This document shows positions 10,262-60,574 of a DNA stretch of 64,000 nucleotides, piece after piece (the first letter of the stretch is position 1; each line of letters opens with the position of its first letter). The notes beneath the pieces are model-generated. The model did no database searches, had not been told where the DNA came from, and saw only the letters and a list, made by a program, of their open reading frames with translations. The translations under genes and the position numbers were made by a program. Source of the DNA: Diphasiastrum complanatum (taxonomy: Eukaryota > Streptophyta > Lycopodiopsida > Lycopodiales > Lycopodiaceae); the NCBI GenBank assembly GCA_029204225.1, contig CM055100.1, forward strand, positions 6,904,933-6,968,932, read 5' to 3'.

Positions 10262-10823
<562 letters not shown>

Positions 10824-10925
10824 TAGTTTAGTCTAGTTTAGTCACATTTTGGTAAATTGTCAATAAGAGGCCAAAACTCATTTTAGACTTAGAGATAAAC
10901 TTTTGAAGTTATATTAGTTTAAAAT

Positions 10926-11459
10926 ACATTCAATAAACACTTTTGGAAAGTGTGGGAAAGTTGGTAGTCGAGTTTGAGAGAGATTCAAATTTGAACTTTG
11001 GGTACATTGAATCTAGACCCAAAAATAGTAGGGTTTACATTTTGGAGGGAAAGCCAAGTGGCCAAATAGGATTTGGAAACTCTATAAAAGGATGTAACTC
11101 GTGGAGAGACACATCTTCTCTCTTCTCTCTCTCATTTCATCATTATACATGGTTCTCTTTGGGTTCTACTACTCATTGGTGCACTATCTTGGTGTTATCT
11201 TGCAATCTTTTGTGTAGAATGATCATTTATTGCTATTTTCGGCTCCACACGTGTGAAATACAGTAGGGTACTGTAATTGTACAGAAAAAAACATATTTTA
11301 TGTTTTGGTTCATGTTTGATCAATATCTCTTAGAGTTTGCATCTCATTTTGTATGTAGATGCTGATTTTTCTACATTGGCAGGATTGTTGGTTTGCTCCT
11401 TATTGTAACCAAAGATTTGGGACTTGGATTGGATCTTGAATGATCTGAAATCCTTCACA
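10926..11459 (+). repeat. 5' LTR of D1
   Basis: Identity with 15346-15880 starts at ATTCAATAAACAC (10928) and ends ATCCTTCACA. The 3' copy is preceded by TG (15346), so the start is set two bases upstream here although this copy reads CA. It contains a TATA box at 11083, a CACACGTGTG palindrome at 11246-11255 and a CT-rich tract near 11120. The 3' LTR has extra CT units and lacks about 10 bp near 11200. Confidence 0.85.
11083..11090 (+). promoter_or_regulatory. D1 LTR TATA box
   Basis: TATAAAAG is present in both LTRs (again at 15503-15510). A CT-rich stretch about 30-60 bp downstream is where transcription of such an LTR would be expected to start. Confidence 0.55.
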
Positions 11460-11471
11460 TGGTATCAGAGC
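11460..11471 (+). other. tRNA-iMet primer-binding site of D1
   Basis: TGGTATCAGAGC, the canonical plant copia primer-binding site, directly abuts the LTR end CA. Confidence 0.92.
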
Positions 11472-12062
11472 TATTGTGTTTCAGGTTATGAAAGGATCAG
11501 CCATCTATAGCAAGGATTTTGGAGGAGTTACCAATGCTAGAGCATGCTAGATTGATCTCTACTAAAAAATCAGCATTTTTGCATGTGTAGAATTGATCTT
11601 TTGTAGGTCAAAACTCAATATAGGGTTATATACTTGATCAATTCCAATTTCACACTTAGCTTACTGGAATTAGATGATTTTTAGTGCATTAGGAAGGTCT
11701 CATTGGAGTCTACAAGAAGATATACCAAGTGTCTAGAAATTGCATGTAGAATTTGAGATATTCAATTTTTTGTGATTTTGTCAAAACCCTGATTTTGATT
11801 GGATCTCTAGTTTGTGAGATTACTGAACTTCATTTGAGTGTGTTTCAATCTTAGGAAGTGGCAAGAATCATTAGATTGAGGATAGATCATAGATTGATCA
11901 AGATTTCACTATTCTATGTGTTGATTTTCTAGGTAGAAGTGCTAGAAGAGATTTGAGAGGTTCCATATCTTTGTGATTTCTTCTTGAGTTCATTTGTTGA
12001 CATTCAAGAGAGTGCTTTGTGCATTGGAACAGGTTGAAAGAAGAAGATTAGGTCACTTCAAC

Positions 12063-12971
12063 ATGACTACAAGTGGTGGATTTATGTTGGAGAGCAATGA
12101 TAGGCTTACCTCAATCAACTATTCTACTTGGAAGGTGAGGATGGAGTCTTTATTGGAGATGAATGAGTTGATGGAGATTGTTGAAGGTGTGGAGGAGAGA
12201 CCTCAAAAACCTCAAGATCAAGTGAGGTATGACAAGAGAGCAAATAAAGCTCTACACATGATTAAGATGAATGTTACCAATGAACTTCTCAAGGAAGTTG
12301 GTAAGTGCGCATCATCTTTGGAGGCTTGGGAAGCTTTGAAGAAGCTTTATGAATCCAAGTCTACATCAAGAGTGCTTACTCTTAGGAGGCAAATCTTTCA
12401 AAGTTTGCAAAAGAAGGAAGAGAATACTCATGCTTTTTTTTTGAGGGTTAAAGCATTCAATGATGAGTTAGCATGTATTGATGAAAGCATTAAGGAGGTA
12501 GAACTTGTTCAAGTTATACTTAATGGACTGTTGGATGATCATGCTAATCTTGTTCAAAGTTTTGCTATTCAAAAGACTTTGCCAAGTATTGTGGATTTGC
12601 AAGAGATCTTGGTGAATGAGGAGTATAGGCTTCAATCAAGAGGAGGTGGATCTACATCGACATCTCATTATGAAGAGGATGCTATGTCCATCAAAGGCAA
12701 GTTCAAGGGAAAAGGAAAAGGCAAGTGGTCTAAAGGGCAAGATCAAGGTGAGACTTCTTCTTTTGGCAAAAAGAAAGATAAGTCTAAGTTGAAATGCTTT
12801 TATTGTGGAATCAAAGGGCATTTTGCAAATGAATGTTTGAAGAAGCAAAGAGATGAAGGTAACAAGCAAATCAACTTTACTACTAATGATGAGGGTCTAG
12901 GTGGTGGTGATTCTCTTTTGATGTGTTCATCAAGTCCAATATCAAGTGAAGGTGACAAAGACTCATGGTAG
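12063..12971 (+). CDS. Copia gag of D1 (302 aa)
   Basis: Capsid/nucleocapsid protein that would package element RNA in cytoplasmic particles. The start at 12063 (MTTSGGF) is preferred over the in-frame ATG at 11994 because copy D2 starts at the equivalent ATG (19387, MATSAGF). The N-terminal half is the copia gag domain (NYSTWKVRMESLLE, AWEALKKLYES, LTLRRQIFQSLQKKE, LVQVILNGLLDDH, LQEILVNEEYRL). A basic Gly/Lys tract follows (KGKFKGKGKGK), then a CCHC zinc knuckle (CFYCGIKGHFANEC). It ends SSEGDKDSW followed by TAG at 12969-12971; the codons after the stop continue in the same frame into the protease signature. Gag looks fully intact. Confidence 0.85.
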   Translation: MTTSGGFMLESNDRLTSINYSTWKVRMESLLEMNELMEIVEGVEERPQKPQDQVRYDKRANKALHMIKMNVTNELLKEVGKCASSLEAWEALKKLYESKSTSRVLTLRRQIFQSLQKKEENTHAFFLRVKAFNDELACIDESIKEVELVQVILNGLLDDHANLVQSFAIQKTLPSIVDLQEILVNEEYRLQSRGGGSTSTSHYEEDAMSIKGKFKGKGKGKWSKGQDQGETSSFGKKKDKSKLKCFYCGIKGHFANECLKKQRDEGNKQINFTTNDEGLGGGDSLLMCSSSPISSEGDKDSW

Positions 12972-15356
12972 ATTGATAGTGGAGCTAGCTCACACATGAC
13001 TAGTCACAAGGAGTTCTTTACTTCTTTGGTCACTTATGATGGAGCCAAGAAAGCAATTCACATGGCCAATGGTGGTGAGTGTGTGATTGAAGGTATTGGT
13101 TCAATTCCTATTTGTCTCTCTACTAATAGGAAAGCAAGACTTGATGGTGTTCTTTACATTCCTTCACTTTCAAAGAATTTGTTAAGTGTTGGTCAAATGA
13201 TAGAGAAAGGATACATGGTAAAGTTTGGTGGTGATGCTTCTTTCATTACAAAGGAAGAAATCTTGGTTGCTAGGGGCAATAGACAAGGTAGACTTTTCAA
13301 GCTTGATGCTTTTGTTATGGCTAACAAAAAGGATGGAATGGAAAAGGAGATTGGTCTCAACTTTCCAAAGTTACCTTTTAGCATCAATAATATTGGTGGA
13401 TCTTATGCAAAGTCTAACAAGCTTCCTTATGCTAGATCTAGGTCAAGATCTAATATGCTTCTTGGAGATGTTCATCTTTGTGCTAACTTGGATAGTCTTG
13501 AGGATAATGATGGTGTTTCAATGGTTCTTCATGGCAAGTGCAAGCATGCAAAAGGTAAGGAAAGAGCTAACTTCATCAATGGAGGTGAAGGTTCTTCCTT
13601 GGAAAAGATTGTTGTTAATGATTTCTTTGATCATATGTCAAAAGATGTTGCTAGGTGCATGCATGAAGGAGGTGGTTCTTCTAAATTCTTTTGTGATGAG
13701 TCCAAGAAAGTCATTTTTCCAGCAAGTGGAGTCACATGTCTTCATAAAGAGAGTAGATCAAATGGTTCTATCAAGAGACTTAGTGAGGGAGATAGTCACA
13801 AGTCAAGAAGAAGAGAAGTATGCGAAGAGTTCAAAGTAGGATGTACTTTGAATGATGTCATTGTGAATAAAAGTGAGGAAGAATCATTATCATGTGAGTC
13901 ATTACCTAAAACATTGAGTAGAAGTTCTTGTTTGAAAAAAGAGAGTACTTCAATCATCCTTATGTTGAAGGTACTAATCATATTTTTCATGGCTTCTAAT
14001 GTTTTTGAGGTTTATACTTCTTATGATGCAATCATTAAGAGGGAGTCTTATGAAGGAAAGAGCAATGGAAGATTCGTTCTTGGGAAGATCCAAGGCATGG
14101 ATCTCACATCTCTTCATCAACTCAAAGGATCCTATGATTATGAATTGATCACTCATGATCAAGATTTCAAAAGGTTGGTTGGAGAAGACTACATGGAGCA
14201 AATCGAGAGGCAATTTCTTCAAGGCAAGGGAGATCTCATTGGTGAGCTTATTGAGGTTTGTTATGGACTCAAGAGGGCTGGATTTATTAGGTTTGATACT
14301 CATCTTCACCTACTTTACTTGATGTTGGATGGAAAGTTTGGAATCTATCTTTTGATTTATGATGGTGACATTGGTGACATTGTTTTCACTAACCTTTGTG
14401 GAAGATCGAGATCAAGCATTGATGAGATCTTGTTGGATCTAGATCATATGTTTGAGAGGGAGTATTTCCAAAGGTTCAGGTCTGAAGATATTCATATCTT
14501 TGATATCTTTGATGATCAAAAGAAAGGTAAGCTAGTGGAAGTGACTCATTTTGCTTTACTCACATGTTTTGGAGAATTTTCTTGTGTAGATGATGCTATG
14601 CAAGTGAATATTGATTCTCATGGTTTTTGTACTGGAAAAGCAAGTAATGGATCTGGAAAACAAATTTTGTTCAATGACTTTGATGGTCAAGAGGAAGATC
14701 AAGAGGTTGGTCTCAAAGGGCTTCAACAACACAAAAGGAAAGGTGACAATTTGGAGCTAGTCAAGAGCATCAAAGGAAGGTTATTTCGCAAAGATGTTAT
14801 GGATCTATTTTTGCAGCTTATTGAAGACTCAAGTAAGGTCAAAGGAGAAGCAAGGAAGTGTTGTTCAAGTTTACTTTACTTGTTCTATCTCATGATTGAG
14901 CTATTTCATGTGGATGTGTGCAAATTGTCAAGATATGGACAAACTAGCTACATTGTCTTGCAATATCTTATTTTTGGAGTTGTACTAGCATTCTTGGCTG
15001 GTTTTGCTGATGGAAATGAGGCTAATGGAGGCTCATTATATCACTCATCCATGATCAAGTTCTCAAGTGTTGAGCTACTTGGTGCCAATACTTGGAGATT
15101 GTCAATTTTTGGTGAATTCATGGTCATTTTCTTGTGTCAAGTAGATCTTGAAGATGGACTAGTGCAACCTACTTGGTTTATGGAGTCATGTGGTGTTGGA
15201 TTCGCATCATTAATTTACTACCTACTCATGGATTTCCAAGGTTTGATGGTTTCTTGTGGCAAGATGGAGATGGAGGCTCATTCATGGAGTTTTATGGTGG
15301 AGACATATCAAGAAAGGACAAAGTTGGAGGACACAAGCAAGCAAATGATTCAATAA
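12972..15356 (+). CDS. D1 second ORF: copia protease start plus remodelled, apparently non-catalytic pol-like region (about 794 aa)
   Basis: In frame with gag across one TAG; the first ATG is at 12996. The first about 115 codons are a normal copia protease (IDSGASSHMTS, CVIEGIGSIPI, YIPSLSKNLLSVGQM). After about 13320 the sequence only resembles pol. Around 13360-13500 it looks like an integrase finger end without its histidine half, and the paired Cys read Gly and Tyr (IGGSYAKS). Around 14150-14460 it follows an RT pattern (YMEQ, CYGLKRAG, DGKFGIYLLIY, SIDEI), but YVDD reads YDGD. Hydrophobic stretches occur near 13960-14010 and 14865-15010. The last about 240 codons match nothing I recognise. 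That it derives from pol is my inference from these patterns. Confidence 0.6.
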   Translation: MDSGASSHMTSHKEFFTSLVTYDGAKKAIHMANGGECVIEGIGSIPICLSTNRKARLDGVLYIPSLSKNLLSVGQMIEKGYMVKFGGDASFITKEEILVARGNRQGRLFKLDAFVMANKKDGMEKEIGLNFPKLPFSINNIGGSYAKSNKLPYARSRSRSNMLLGDVHLCANLDSLEDNDGVSMVLHGKCKHAKGKERANFINGGEGSSLEKIVVNDFFDHMSKDVARCMHEGGGSSKFFCDESKKVIFPASGVTCLHKESRSNGSIKRLSEGDSHKSRRREVCEEFKVGCTLNDVIVNKSEEESLSCESLPKTLSRSSCLKKESTSIILMLKVLIIFFMASNVFEVYTSYDAIIKRESYEGKSNGRFVLGKIQGMDLTSLHQLKGSYDYELITHDQDFKRLVGEDYMEQIERQFLQGKGDLIGELIEVCYGLKRAGFIRFDTHLHLLYLMLDGKFGIYLLIYDGDIGDIVFTNLCGRSRSSIDEILLDLDHMFEREYFQRFRSEDIHIFDIFDDQKKGKLVEVTHFALLTCFGEFSCVDDAMQVNIDSHGFCTGKASNGSGKQILFNDFDGQEEDQEVGLKGLQQHKRKGDNLELVKSIKGRLFRKDVMDLFLQLIEDSSKVKGEARKCCSSLLYLFYLMIELFHVDVCKLSRYGQTSYIVLQYLIFGVVLAFLAGFADGNEANGGSLYHSSMIKFSSVELLGANTWRLSIFGEFMVIFLCQVDLEDGLVQPTWFMESCGVGFASLIYYLLMDFQGLMVSCGKMEMEAHSWSFMVETYQERTKLEDTSKQMIQ

Positions 15357-15880
15357 ACACTTTTGGAAAGTGTGGGAAAGTTGGTAGTCGAGTTTGAGAG
15401 AGATTCAAATTTGAACTTTGGGTACATTGAATCTAGACCCAAAAATAGTAGGGTTTACATTTTGGAGGGAAAGCCAAGTGGCCAAATAGGATTTGAAAAC
15501 TCTATAAAAGGATGTAACTCGTGGAGAGACACATCTTCTCTCTTCTCTCTCTCTCTCTCTCATTTCATCATTATACATGGTTCTCTTTGGGTTCTACTAC
15601 TCATTGGTGCACTATCTTGGTGTTATCTTGTGTGTAGAATGATCATTTATTGCTATTTTTGGTTCCACACGTGTGAAATACAGTAGGATAATGTAATTGT
15701 ACGAAAAACAAACATATTTTATGTTTTGGTTCATGTTTGATCAATATCTCTTAAAGTTTGCATCTCATTTTGTATGTAGATGCTGATTTTTCTACATTGG
15801 CAGGATTGTTGGTTTGCTCCTTATTGTAACCAAAGATTTGGGACTTGGATTGGATCTTGAATGATCTGAAATCCTTCACA
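15346..15880 (+). repeat. 3' LTR of D1
   Basis: Direct repeat of 10926-11459. It begins TGATTCAATAAAC and ends CCTTCACA, with TATA at 15503-15510 and the CACACGTGTG palindrome at 15666-15675. It is followed by ATAACTCCAC rather than a primer-binding site. No clear polypurine tract precedes it. Confidence 0.85.
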
Positions 15881-16889
15881 ATAACTCCACAATCCATTGG
15901 CTATCAAACTTCTACTGCTATCCTACCATTTTCCAACATGATGGTGAGTGTGCAATCAAAGGGATTGGCACAATTCCTGTTTACCTCTCTACTAATAGGA
16001 ATGTTTGAAGGATGTTTTATTCATTCCATTTATCACTAATAACCTTCTTAGTGTGAGTCAAATGCTTGAAAAGGGATTCAAAGTGGAGTTTGAGGGTGAT
16101 GCTTGTTTGTTCAAGAAGGAGAATGAATTGATTGCAAAAGGGAAGAGGCAAGGTAAGTTGTTCAAACATGATGCTTGTGTTGTTGCTAACCAAGCTGGAT
16201 GTATTTCAAAGGAGCAATTGTCAATGCAAGAGGTATGGCACAAGAGATTGGGACATCTCAACTACAAGTCATTGGAGGTGATGGCAAAGAGGCAAGTTGT
16301 TTTTGGTCTTCCCAATTCTTTATCAAGTATGAATCATGTTTGTGAGCAATTTGCTTTATCAAAGTCACATAGGTTACCTACATCAAGGTCAAGTGCACCT
16401 TTTCAACTTGTGCATTCAGATATTCATGGTGTTACTATAATTAGCAATGGAGGTGCTAAGACGTATGTGAATTTTATTTATAATTCTATTAGATTTTGTT
16501 GGGTGTATCTACTAGAGAGCAAAGATGTCTTTGTCAAGTTCAAGATGGCAAGGGAGGTCCAATTTTCTACAAAGATCAAGTGCTTGACGAGTGAAAATGG
16601 TGGTGAGTACATTTCTACCAAGTTCAAAGCATTTTGAGATGCAGATGGGATCAAGATGGAGTACACAAGCCCAAGGACACCACAAGAAAATGGAGTGGCC
16701 GAGAGGTTATGTGAAGGATCAAAGCCATGAGGTTAGGTGCAAATCTTCCTAAATCCTTTTGGGATCAAGCTTTGTTGTGTGCTAATTTCCTATGCAATAG
16801 ATGATCGAGTGTGGTATTGTGGGTGGGAAAATCCCTTTTGAAGTCTTGTTTGTTAGAAGGCCGAATGTCAAGTTTTTCAAAGCTTTTGG

Positions 16890-17154
16890 GGCTAAAAGCA
16901 TGGTTTGGTGGTGCAAAAAAAAGAACCCATTTTTCATTGTACCTTTTGGTAGTACATTTCACTTTTCGGGGATTTGGGAGGGATCTTGATAGATGCTACA
17001 CATGAGTAAATGGAATGAAGGTGTCCCTAGTAATGATGGGCCTACCCTCTTATAGTATTGGGGGGTACGTGTTGGGCCTACTCTCTCTCCTCCAATAAAA
17101 ATGAAATAGTGTCCTTGACAGTCCATGTTGCACCACCAAACCAAGCTTTTAGCC
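16890..17154 (+). mobile_element. MITE-1 (265 bp) with TTGG target duplication
   Basis: Starts GGCTAAAAGCATGGTTTGGT and ends with the inverse (ACCAAACCAAGCTTTTAGCC), a terminal inverted repeat of about 25 bp. The flanks are TTGG at 16886-16889 and TTGG at 17155-17158. The interrupted copia E code reads ..CTTTTGGATGC.. once one copy is removed. It has no coding capacity. Confidence 0.85.
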
Positions 17155-17591
17155 TTGGATGCATTTGCTATTTCAACATTACACTTGATGATAGTACAAA
17201 GGAGGATCCATCTTCAAAGAAAGGTATATTTGTTGGTTATAGTGAGGTGAGCAATGCTTTTTATTCCTTCAACTAAGAAAGTGCTCATTGGAAGAGATGT
17301 CCTTTTTGATAAGAAATTTTTTTCAAAAGTTTCTTCAAGTGGTGGTGTGAAAATTGGATCTAACATTCTTGATGTTGATGACATTGATGATATCTTGGAT
17401 ACATGTTGATGTTGAAGAGCCTACTTCAAATCAAAAGCCAAAGAGGACATCAAGGCAAAGGTAACAACATTTGAGGCTCATGATTAAAAAAAGTAAGCAA
17501 GTTGTTGGTGGTACAAACTATGCTTTCCTAGCCTTTTTTGATGAACCTACATGTGTAGATAAAGAAAGACAAAAAAGAGGAGTGGATCCAA

Positions 17592-17870
17592 GGCTAAAAG
17601 CATGGTTTGGTGGTGCAAAAAAGAACCTATTTTTCTTTTGGTAGTACATTTCACTTTTGGGGATTTGGGAGGGAGCTTGATAGATGCTACCCACGAGTTC
17701 ATGCAATGAAGGCGTCCCTAGTGATGATGGGCCTACCCTCTTGGAGTAATGGGGGGTGGGTGGACCCACTTTAGAATGTTAAACAATAAACCTTTTTTGA
17801 GTGCATTTCTACCCAAGAAAGGTAGTGTCCTTGACAATCCATGTTGTACCACCAAACCATGCTTTTAGCC
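17592..17870 (+). mobile_element. MITE-2 (279 bp), sibling of MITE-1, with CCAA target duplication
   Basis: Same termini and same orientation as MITE-1, and most of the interior is shared (GATAGATGCTAC, GATGGGCCTACCCTCTT). Flanks are CCAA at 17588-17591 and 17871-17874. The part before the right terminus (about 17770-17820) differs from MITE-1. It has no coding capacity. Confidence 0.85.
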
Positions 17871-18430
17871 CCAACCAATGGATTTTAAGTATCAAGCTCT
17901 TATGAAGAATGACACATGGAGATTGGTGGAACTTCCAAACAAGGCTATTGGATGCAAGTGGATCTTCAAAGTGAAGACAAACCAAGGTGGATCAATCAAC
18001 AAGTAAAAAGCAAGGTTGGTGGCAAAAAGATATGCTCAAGAGTATGGAATTGACTATGATGAGCCTTTGCACCCATGCCAAATATGGTAAGCATTTGGGA
18101 CATCATATCCCTTGCAACACTTTTTGGATGGTATCTATGGAAATTGGATATCAAAAATGTATTCTTGAATGGTGATCTTGAGGAGGAGGTGTTTATGGAG
18201 CAACTCGAGGGCTACATTTCACATGGCAAGCCTAATCATGTGTGTTTTTTACAAAAGAGTTTGTATGGACTTAAGCAAGCGCCAAGGAGTTGGTATGCTA
18301 AGCTTAACATCTTTTTACTTTATCAAAATTTCAAGATGATGGAGACAACTATCCAGATATTGATGATATCAAGATTGCACTAAAAAAAGAGTTTGAGGTG
18401 CATGATCTTGATCTTTTGCATTATAGTTTG

Positions 18431-18801
18431 TTAATTTGAACTACGTTACGTAGATTTCAAATCTATGCATTTTGATTGGGCCTGGTGACGGTCGAAACTA
18501 AAGAAAAAAAAATAAAAGTATCTTTACAAAGGGTCCTTTTGATATTGAGAACTCCTCTAATGGTAGAGGTCTGCTCACACGTGTGCACAAGGCTGAAGTA
18601 GGCGAGTTTTTACTTCTAAAAGATTGTTTACTAGTTCTCTATATAGAAGGAAAATGGACCAAAAGTGCTCAAAATAGAAAGTTTGATCCAAGTGTCAATT
18701 TTGCATGATGAATCATCATATGACAAAGCATCCTCAAACATGTGAGATCTGATGCATGATTAGTACCACAAGCTCCAAGAAATGTATTTATAGAGCCACA
18801 T
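18431..18801. other. Unassigned segment between copia E and copia D2
   Basis: No coding similarity seen. It contains an exact CACACGTGTG palindrome at 18576-18585 and a possible TATA-like TATATAG near 18640, so it may be a decayed LTR. It ends where the D2 leader begins. Confidence 0.35.
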
Positions 18802-20634
18802 GTGTTTCAGGTTATGAAAGGATCAGCCATCTTTAGCAAGGATTTGGAGGAGTTACCAACGCTAGAGCATGCTAGATTGATTTCTTCTCAAAAATCTCCA
18901 TTTTTGCATATGTAGAATTGACCTTTGTAGGTCAAAACTCAATATAGGTTTATATACTTGATAAATTCTGATTTCACACTTGGTTTACTGGAATTTGCCG
19001 ATTTTTGGTGCATTGTGAGGGTCTCATTGGAGGCTACAAGATGATATTTCAAGTTTTTCGAAATTGCATGTAGAATTTGAGATATTCAATTTTTTGTGAT
19101 TTTGTCAAAACCCTAATTTTGATTGGATCTCTAGTTTGTGAGGTTACTGAACTTCATTTGAGTGTGTTTCAATCTTAGAAAGTGGCAAGAATCATTAGAT
19201 TGAGGATAGATCATAGATTGATCAAGATTTCACTATTCTATGCATTGAGTTTTTAGTTAGAAGTGCTAGAAGAGATTTGAGAGGTTCCATATCTTTGTGA
19301 TTTTTTCTTGAGTTCATTTGTTGACATTTAAGAGAGTGCTTTGTGCATAGGAACAGGTTGAAAGAAGAAGATCAGGTCATTGCAACATGGCTACAAGTGC
19401 TGGATTCATGTTGGAAGACAATGATAGGCTTACCTCAAGTAACTATTCACTGTGGAAAGTGAGGATGGAATCACTTCTTGAGATGAATGATGTTTTGGAT
19501 ATTGTTGCAGGTGTGGAGGAGAGGCCTCAAGCACCTCAAGATCAAATGAGGTATGACAAGAGGGCCAAAGGGCTCTACACATGATTAAGATGAATGTTAC
19601 CAATGAACTTCTCAAGGAGATTGGTAATTGCACATCATCTTTGGAGGCTTGGGAAGCTTTGAAGAAGCTTTATGAATCCAAGTCTACATCAAGAGTGCTT
19701 ACTCTTAGGAGGCAAATCTTTCAAAGTTTTCAAAAGAAGGAAGCGAGTACTCATGCTTTTGTTTTGAAGGTTAAAGCATTCAATGATGAATTAACATGTA
19801 TTGATGGAAGCATTAAGGAGGTAGAACTTGTTCAAGTTATACTTAATGGCTTGTTGGATGATCATGCTAATCTTGTTCAAAGCTTTGCTACTCAAAAGAC
19901 TCTTCCAAGTATTGTGGATTTGCAAGAGATCTTGGTGAATGAGGAGTATAGGCTTCAATCAAGAGGAGGTGGATCTACATCAATATCTCAATATGAAGAG
20001 GATGCTATGGTCATCAAAGACAATTTCAAGGGAAAAGGCAAATGCAATCGGTCTAAAGGGCAAGATCAAGGTGAGACTTCCTCTTTTGGCAAAAAGAAAG
20101 ATAATTCTAAGTTGAAATGCTTTTATTGTGGAATCAAAGGGCATTTTGCTAACGAATGTTTGAAGAAACAAAGAGATGAAGGTAGCAAGCAAATCAACTT
20201 TACTACTAATGATGAGGATCTAGGTGGTTGTGATTTTCTTTTGATGTGTTATTCAAGTCTAATATCAAGTGAAGATGACAAAGATTCATGGTAAATTTGA
20301 TAGTGGAGCTAGTTCACACATGACTAGTCACAAGGAGTTCTTTACTTCTTTGGTCACTTATGATGGAGCCAAGAAAGAAATTCACATGGCCAATGGTGGT
20401 GAGCGTGTGATTGAAGGTATTGGTTCAATTCCTATTTGTCTTTCTACTAATAGGAATGCAAGACTTGATGGTATTCTTTATATTCCTTTACTTTCAAAGA
20501 ATTTGCTAAGTGATGGTCAAATAATAGAGAAAGGATACATGGTAAAGTTTGGTGGTGATACTTGTTTCATTAGAAAGGAAGAAATCTTGGTTGCTAGGGG
20601 CAATAGACAAGATAGAATTTTCAAGCTTGATGCT
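18802..20634 (+). pseudogene. Copia D2 relic: leader, gag, protease start
   Basis: 18802-19386 matches the D1 leader from about 11474 (GTTTCAGGTTATGAAAGGAT) but lacks the LTR and primer-binding site. Gag starts at 19387 and is close to D1 gag throughout; one frameshift near 19570 splits it. The zinc knuckle (CFYCGIKGHFANEC) is intact. Gag ends SSEDDKDSW followed by TAA at the same codon as the D1 stop. Protease follows after a one-base insertion (SGASSHMTSHKEFF) and is cut at about 20634 by element C2. Confidence 0.82.
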
Positions 20635-21358
20635 TGTTGTGTCATCGATGTAGCATAGGGTCCATCGCTGGGAGCGGCAACCTCGCCTTCACCTGCATAG
20701 CAAGAAGAGAGAGGGAGAAGAGAAAGATGAGAAAGAGAGTGGAGAGAGGGAGAGAGAGAATTCCTAGGTTGAGAAAGGCTTTGGGGGCTCAAGCGCCTAC
20801 CAAAGCTATTCTATCCCAACATAGGGAGAAAGGGAAAAGAGAGAGGGAGAAGAGAGAGAGAGAGAGAGTGGAGAGAGAGAGAGATGGAGATGGAGAAACC
20901 AAGAGAGTTTTATTAGAATGAAAATGGAAGATGATACAATACAATGGAAATGGATCCCTCTCATTGGCCATTTCATTGGGACAAGGATTCTAATCCAAGC
21001 CCTTCAAATAAACACAACTTAAATCTATTGGTTCTAAGAAAGCACAAGGGCACTCACATGATTCATGTGAGTTCTACTTTGTGCAACTTAGATTCCTTAT
21101 TTTTCAGCTTGACTTTTTGAACTTGGGCCTCAAACTTATTTATTTACAACTAGGGCCCAAGTCACTAGAACACAACTTAAACTATTTAACTAGTGTGCTC
21201 ATTAGGTTGGGCTTACACACGCAGGATGCCAGTGCCCTCGCACTTATTATCCTATTGTACAATGTACTATGGCAAGGCCCACTAGGTAAGACTTGGCCAA
21301 TAATATTTTAAGTGGTGGGACCCACTTGTTTATTATTGTGCAGGAAATACCCACAACA
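20635..21358 (-). repeat. LTR of element C2 (minus, 724 bp)
   Basis: The two ends form a perfect 7-bp inverted repeat, TGTTGTG at 20635 and CACAACA ending at 21358. Copia D2 protease is interrupted at the left end. 21100-21358 resembles 1245-1494 in element C1. A GA-rich stretch lies at 20700-20885. Flanking 5-mers (ATGCT and GGGTC) do not match, so this is probably the 3' LTR of a minus-strand element rather than a solo LTR. Confidence 0.55.

Positions 21359-38395: not shown

Positions 38396-40082
<1,687 letters not shown>

Positions 40083-50813: not shown

Positions 50814-50885
<72 letters not shown>

Positions 50886-59906: not shown

Positions 59907-60574
<668 letters not shown>

Follow-up and report, generated by a model that had tools for sequence, protein, structure and literature searches.

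A non-autonomous copia family of Diphasiastrum complanatum whose dead Pol region may be held open as a reading frame rather than conserved as a protein

TR-GAG elements are defined by Gag as their sole coding domain, and BARE-2 multiplies with its missing functions provided in trans. The element considered here, D1, is a copia-type long terminal repeat (LTR) retrotransposon lying in 64,000 nucleotides of Diphasiastrum complanatum (GCA_029204225.1, contig CM055100.1, positions 6,904,933 to 6,968,932 of the forward strand; this whole stretch is called the window, and D1 positions are counted within it). Like TR-GAG (PMC10025401), the D1 family is non-autonomous and keeps the Gag domain; unlike TR-GAG, it also has the protease, and its long fused open frame extends across the Pol region. 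BARE-2 lacks gag (PMC10025401 cites a paper entitled "Life without gag"), whereas in the D1 family gag is open in the young copy L044 and constrained on internal branches, and it is Pol that is dead. Bs1 of maize (PMC13317346 and PMC7264820) is likewise a plant LTR element with non-standard sequence within an open frame, but it captured pieces of 3 host genes, whereas the traceable pieces in the D1 family derive from Pol, with the segment X1a and the inside of the segment X2 untraced. Retand elements with missing domains (PMC11963269) are similarly recently active with some coding domains absent, but they belong to Gypsy, and frames in antisense orientation lie in the interval from pol to the 3′ LTR. 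Among titles and abstracts of the openly licensed literature, we found none describing a non-autonomous family of LTR elements with a Pol frame that is open yet free of amino-acid constraint, which is weak evidence of absence. The D1 family is best read, and we lean toward this with some reserve, as a trans-mobilized parasite in which a drifting, dead Pol region would be required to stay translatable.

The D1 open reading frame (ORF), 12972-15356, runs for 794 codons without a stop (the sequence-only reading of this stretch had counted about 795); it is genuine, and its openness exceeds chance. On sequence grounds, D1 belongs, as one decayed copy, to a non-autonomous copia family present in high copy number. 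A search of its own genome (1.74 Gb) with the D1 ORF, in which the best 57 of 96,530 candidates were scored and the sample favors open copies, gave places with 89-100% identity, 34 of the 57 being stop-free across the match and 19 of the 57 having a stop-free frame of exactly 1203 codons. This fused frame passes from gag through protease into the Pol region and ends in KLVEEGV just 5′ of the 3′ LTR. Recent members carry this single Gag-protease-Pol frame or shorter versions of it, likewise open, at about 1145-1148 and 1088 codons; in a second family search (best 150 of 5,617 candidates), 32 equal-score rows, treated as one recent cluster and left unaligned, comprised 16 frames of 1203 codons, 8 of 1145-1148 and 6 of 1088, the other 2 being 991 and 867. 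L044 is very young: the two LTRs are identical at all but 1 of 654 sites, and LTRs, primer binding site (PBS), polypurine tract (PPT) and target-site duplication (GAATG) are all present. Copies were also sampled by their 5′ untranslated region (UTR; n=8, of which 7 belong to the family and L045, a different element, was excluded); 4 of the 7 lack the same stretch of about 58 codons, removed in frame, and one of these 4 is fully open at 1149 codons. The supposition that the frame is open as a family state, and not by chance in one young copy, is borne out, many other copies being open. Neither outcome that the sequence-only reading had named as refuting was found, since alignment and profile comparison also detect a relation to Pol. 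L015 and L016, about 23 kb apart, are two copies of a fragment of the family that corresponds to L044 2280-5215 and has neither LTRs nor gag; both lie in 1013-codon open frames.

The gag and protease are of copia type by Pfam (Retrotran_gag_2, zf-CCHC, Pol_BBD), and L044 fused residues 6-495 align to residues 12-531 of the autonomous relative L043 at 61.6% identity (E 4e-178). Beyond them, recognizable Pol fades. In Pfam scans of D1 and L044, the integrase core (rve) and reverse transcriptase (RT; RVT_2) expected of an autonomous copia went unmatched even at E<=10, and L043 has both; on the D1 ORF, Pol_BBD is the sole weighty match, with one extra at chance level (0.067). The Cys pair of the integrase finger is lost, YDGD stands for YVDD, and the motif-A Asp of RT aligns to a gap. 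By these comparisons, the family has no recognizable integrase core or RT, and the earlier view of D1 as non-autonomous and non-catalytic stands. The accompanying view that the frame is Pol-derived holds for at least part of it: alignment and profile comparison find Pol in some segments, though not in X1a or within X2, whose origin is untraced.

X2 is shared with a second family, reached by walking out from L045 (best 150 of 11,430 candidates scored), in which 12 of the 150 best rows have stop-free frames of at least 1100 codons. Two of its members, L065 with 1270 codons and L066 with 1208, have retained gag, the protease, the integrase core and the SH3 domain and carry X2, in frame, at the RT position; DNA identity of X2 is 87.4% between L044 and L065 (about 1066 bp) and 87.3% for L066. 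In 7 of 12 second-family loci (one pair twins), an additional open frame of 187-206 codons follows the X2-bearing frame; it is broken in L066. In L055 and L062, at about 1880-2498 of the oriented element, it translates as RNase H, in its own frame adjoining the end of X2. These RNase H frames, still open although the family lacks RT, carry the usual acidic residues.

What selection acts on in such a frame was gauged from the ratio of nonsynonymous to synonymous rates (dN/dS) among 23 copies of the D1 family, with 8 near-duplicates and the reference row dropped, L001, L012 and L015 partly masked, and the mutation spectrum taken from the copies. On internal branches, gag gives 0.29 (20 nonsynonymous and 23 synonymous changes, p 7e-5), protease plus finger 0.95 (16:5, p 1), X1 0.77 (55:24, p 0.3) and X2 1.29 (88:22, p 0.3); on terminal branches, the values are 0.82 (p 0.22), 0.86 (p 0.51), 0.77 (p 0.055) and 1.17 (p 0.30), respectively. 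Internal branches of the second family give 0.81 (15:6) for the C-terminal half of integrase and 1.26 (36:9) for X2, neither differing from 1. Gag plus protease gives 0.53 between families and 0.42-0.46 against L043, with X2 between families at 1.61-1.74; among fixed between-group differences, the values are 0.47 for gag and 0.54 for protease (both from 30 D1-family and 3 second-family copies) and 2.05 for X2 (29 and 12). The nonsynonymous-to-synonymous counts of X2 and of gag plus protease differ (Fisher p 7e-6 and 2e-4, 33-row alignment). These patterns indicate that Gag is under amino-acid constraint, with none detected on the Pol region and positive selection unproven.

The sequence-only reading had proposed a remodeled Pol-derived protein, possibly with a structural or accessory role. 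That selection preserves the sequence of such a protein is not supported: on internal branches constraint is seen on Gag but not on the Pol region, and the between-family X2 ratio is compatible with 1. A variant, in which loose or positive selection acts on a Pol region that has become a new, fast-evolving accessory protein, perhaps a structural part linked to Gag or one that interacts with the host, is unlikely in our estimate, though several features fit it. The Pol region shows a coding-like codon-position bias and also contains hydrophobic stretches; the frame is open in two families and in several length classes, with X2 in frame in both; the X2 ratio of 1.61-2.05 under the empirical spectrum has p 0.02-0.04; and the terminal-branch value of X1 falls just short of significance. 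However, the X2 excess depends on the spectrum (1.28-1.74 over all spectra, 1.28-1.73 for the others) and is gone once 108 clustered or indel-edge codons are removed (1.02-1.37, p 0.47-1), internal-branch ratios of the Pol region are indistinguishable from 1, several copies do without the roughly 58 codons, and searches of the remodeled region gave no protein-family, PDB or structural signal.

The openness of the frame is a different matter. Beyond the finger, L044 has 698 codons in which codon-position composition predicts 37.5 stops, and none is found. The 120 changes that separate X2 of the two families would be expected to include 5.2 stops but include none (P 0.006). In the MAFFT alignment of X2 from L044 and the second family, the 2 indels (9 and 12 bases) are both multiples of three, against 5.1 frame-breaking indels expected (P 0.006; Fisher 0.021) from the LTR and UTR, where 11 of 13 indels break frame. 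Stops within X2 in the family alignment are private, except at codon 1079 (two copies). An apparent fixed stop at codon 1170 proved to be an artefact of a 12-bp indel; codon-wise alignments show none.

D1 itself is an LTR element with a 5′ LTR, a shortened 3′ LTR and a 5-base duplication (GTAAC/ATAAC). It and a partial copy, D2, are laid out in the window as follows.

10803 to 10807, no strand: 5′ copy of the target-site duplication, GTAAC; the 3′ copy is one base different
10808 to 11459, forward: 5′ LTR, TGTGAGAGATTTC...AATCCTTCACA, from alignment to the L044 LTR
11460 to 11471, forward: PBS TGGTATCAGAGC, identical in L043, L044, L065 and L066; we take it to be of initiator tRNA-Met type
12063 to 12971, forward: gag with CCHC zinc knuckle (Pfam Retrotran_gag_2 2e-23, zf-CCHC 5e-5)
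12972 to 13214, forward: protease (Pol_BBD, Pfam 1e-22)
13284 to 13523, edges approximate, forward: integrase zinc finger remnant, shortened, Cys pair gone (L044 versus L043 protein alignment)
13536 to 14102, forward: X1a, which replaces the integrase core; unrecognized, contains a hydrophobic stretch
14103 to 14456, forward: RT-like piece in displaced order, with YDGD (14358-14369) where YVDD is expected
14511 to 14603, forward: remnant of the segment directly preceding RT in ordinary Pol (DNA match and hhalign)
14580 to 15221, forward: X2, which replaces RT/RNase H and occurs also in the L065/L066 family (DNA identity)
15222 to 15353, forward: out-of-frame tail, D1 residues about 751-794 (alignment ends in other copies)
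15348 to 15880, forward: 3′ LTR, left part lost (D1 joins L044 5108 to 5527)
15881 to 15885, no strand: 3′ copy of the target-site duplication, ATAAC
18801 to 20640, forward: D2, second partial family copy, with UTR, gag and part of protease (92.5% identity over 1844 aligned bp)

The D1 LTRs differ at 6 of 523 aligned sites. A deletion of about 418 bp at the 3′ end removed the end of the fused frame, the PPT and the left part of the 3′ LTR, and a frameshift near residue 751 (a single-base gap at fused codon 1061) puts about 43 last residues out of frame; numerous copies match D1 only up to residue 750-753. The last third that had seemed unrecognizable is, accordingly, partly this tail, peculiar to D1, and partly X2, common to the second family. 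The D1 5′ UTR and the adjacent relic RT both recur at 100% (G000:C9:6653602-6660479 versus window 11475-18383), which points to a probable duplication of the locus, whether in the genome or in its assembly, with the second site about 263 kb off on the same contig. Long simple repeats (CT/GA and TA runs) lie at 10370-10547, just upstream of D1, and at 39390-39490, 50817-50882 and 59910-60104.

A plausible source of the missing enzymes is present in the same genome. L043 has an intact 1330-codon Gag-protease-integrase-RT-RNase H frame with every Pfam Pol domain, and a frame of this length recurs in over half of the 150 rows scored out of 73,327 candidates. One autonomous-type copy (G000:C2:16985031-16985312) lies within a 4405-codon open frame, well beyond one element, perhaps tandem elements read through. 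The L043 type and the D1 family share LTR ends (TGTGARARAT / TTCACA), PBS, the PPT stretch AACTAGTTGAAGAGGGAG, gag, protease, the frame and its last residues KLVEEGV; the D1 family differs in lacking recognizable integrase core, RT and RNase H and in length (1203 versus 1330 codons). The LTR interiors of L043 and L044 are barely alignable (p 0.54; 517 of 654 bases at p 0.19 under a gappier setting), and L038 (78.6% to L066) shows that there are RT-bearing elements whose LTR is nearer. From the absent enzymes, the shared cis ends and the young LTRs, we infer that RT and integrase would be supplied in trans, by an autonomous copia of the L043 type or by an RT-bearing relative like the source of L038, to a family encoding Gag and protease fused to a dead Pol region.

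From neutral expectations, we infer further that stops and frameshifts in the Pol region would be selected against in multiplying copies, whose RNA would need translation nearly to its 3′ end. Avoidance of nonsense-mediated decay would be the likeliest step, because termination after the protease would give the RNA a 3′ UTR exceeding 2 kb; we put this step at about one third, the alternative being that Gag-protease needs a fused C-terminal partner. That long 3′ UTRs promote such decay is stated in PMC6277124, which lists Kertesz 2006 as a reference for plants.

Several points, here and in the next paragraph, count against a frame kept open by selection. Because the elements under comparison had been selected for their long open frames, the P values for openness overstate the case. 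With a second aligner, X2 has 3 indels, 2 of them frame-breaking yet compensating, against 7.0 expected (Fisher 0.107). Only one 5′-UTR-sampled copy is fully open, and lesions number 8 in about 8.7 kb of gag plus protease and 10 in about 11.5 kb of the Pol region (six rows; L050, whose alignment was forced across a large deletion, was left out), an even spread as predicted by decay after insertion. A stop at the gag/protease joint (fused codon 311), absent from 30 of the 33 copies and relatives aligned, is present in D1, D2 and L018. The same Trp codon is affected at window 12969-12971, at D2 20292-20294 and in L018 (2 TAG, 1 TAA), and the three carriers are ungrouped in a tree that is poorly resolved. 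The L066 frame ends about 0.5 kb before the PPT, and long frames are absent from many other non-autonomous LTR elements. The even lesion density, the ratios near 1 and the indel test with the second aligner would all suit a Pol region under no selection, its masters open by chance and copied in recent bursts; this is already disfavored, and we consider it improbable, since a region nearly unrecognizable as Pol and about 12% different between families shows no family-wide stop or net frameshift.

The history of X2 adds further difficulty. X2 differs less between families (p 0.117 with one aligner, 0.110 with the other) than do the LTR (0.210 and 0.190; 0.144 under the gappier setting), the 5′ UTR (0.213 and 0.205) and four-fold sites of gag plus protease (0.385), and this closeness makes it likely that X2 was exchanged, probably via recombination, although RNA constraint may be the cause instead. 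Recombination between LTR elements during bursts is reported in PMC5668417. Both ends of X2 are, by sequence comparison, Pol-derived (the pre-RT remnant, in its L044 version, has 70% DNA identity over 105 positions to L043 3051-3159, hhalign P 2.6e-3). The inside showed no RT trace: its scores were 92-119 with collinear RT and 90-140 with displaced segments. At the protein level, tests for RT and for the RT-RNase H connection were negative as well. X1a and the inside of X2 might be captured foreign sequence, such as host genes transduced as in Bs1, in frame with Pol remnants. No relative of X1a was found, the inside of X2 exceeds the RT stretch it replaces by about 135 bp, and the junctions with ordinary Pol are sharp in L065/L066 and in L045, all of which favor capture; nevertheless, we rate it as rather improbable. 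A protein-family search for a host-gene source of X1a and X2 gave no match, genic copies being hidden behind element copies.

What the trans-mobilized reading would mean, if correct, is that an open frame and a conserved protein, usually found together, come apart here. One genome holds two non-autonomous families that share an RT-replacing segment, alongside an intact and highly abundant relative. We suggest, tentatively and with considerable doubt, that about 700 codons serve as a "placeholder Pol," selected to be open and not for their sequence. If so, RT and integrase would have been lost and Gag and protease kept, only fully translatable RNAs would be passed on, and the placeholder would spread between element families by recombination, displacing working RT. 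Should selection for the frame alone be real, long ORFs in repeats would not count as evidence that a protein is functional, and naturally occurring copies with stops could serve to test directly whether plant retrotransposons are policed by RNA decay or by translation.
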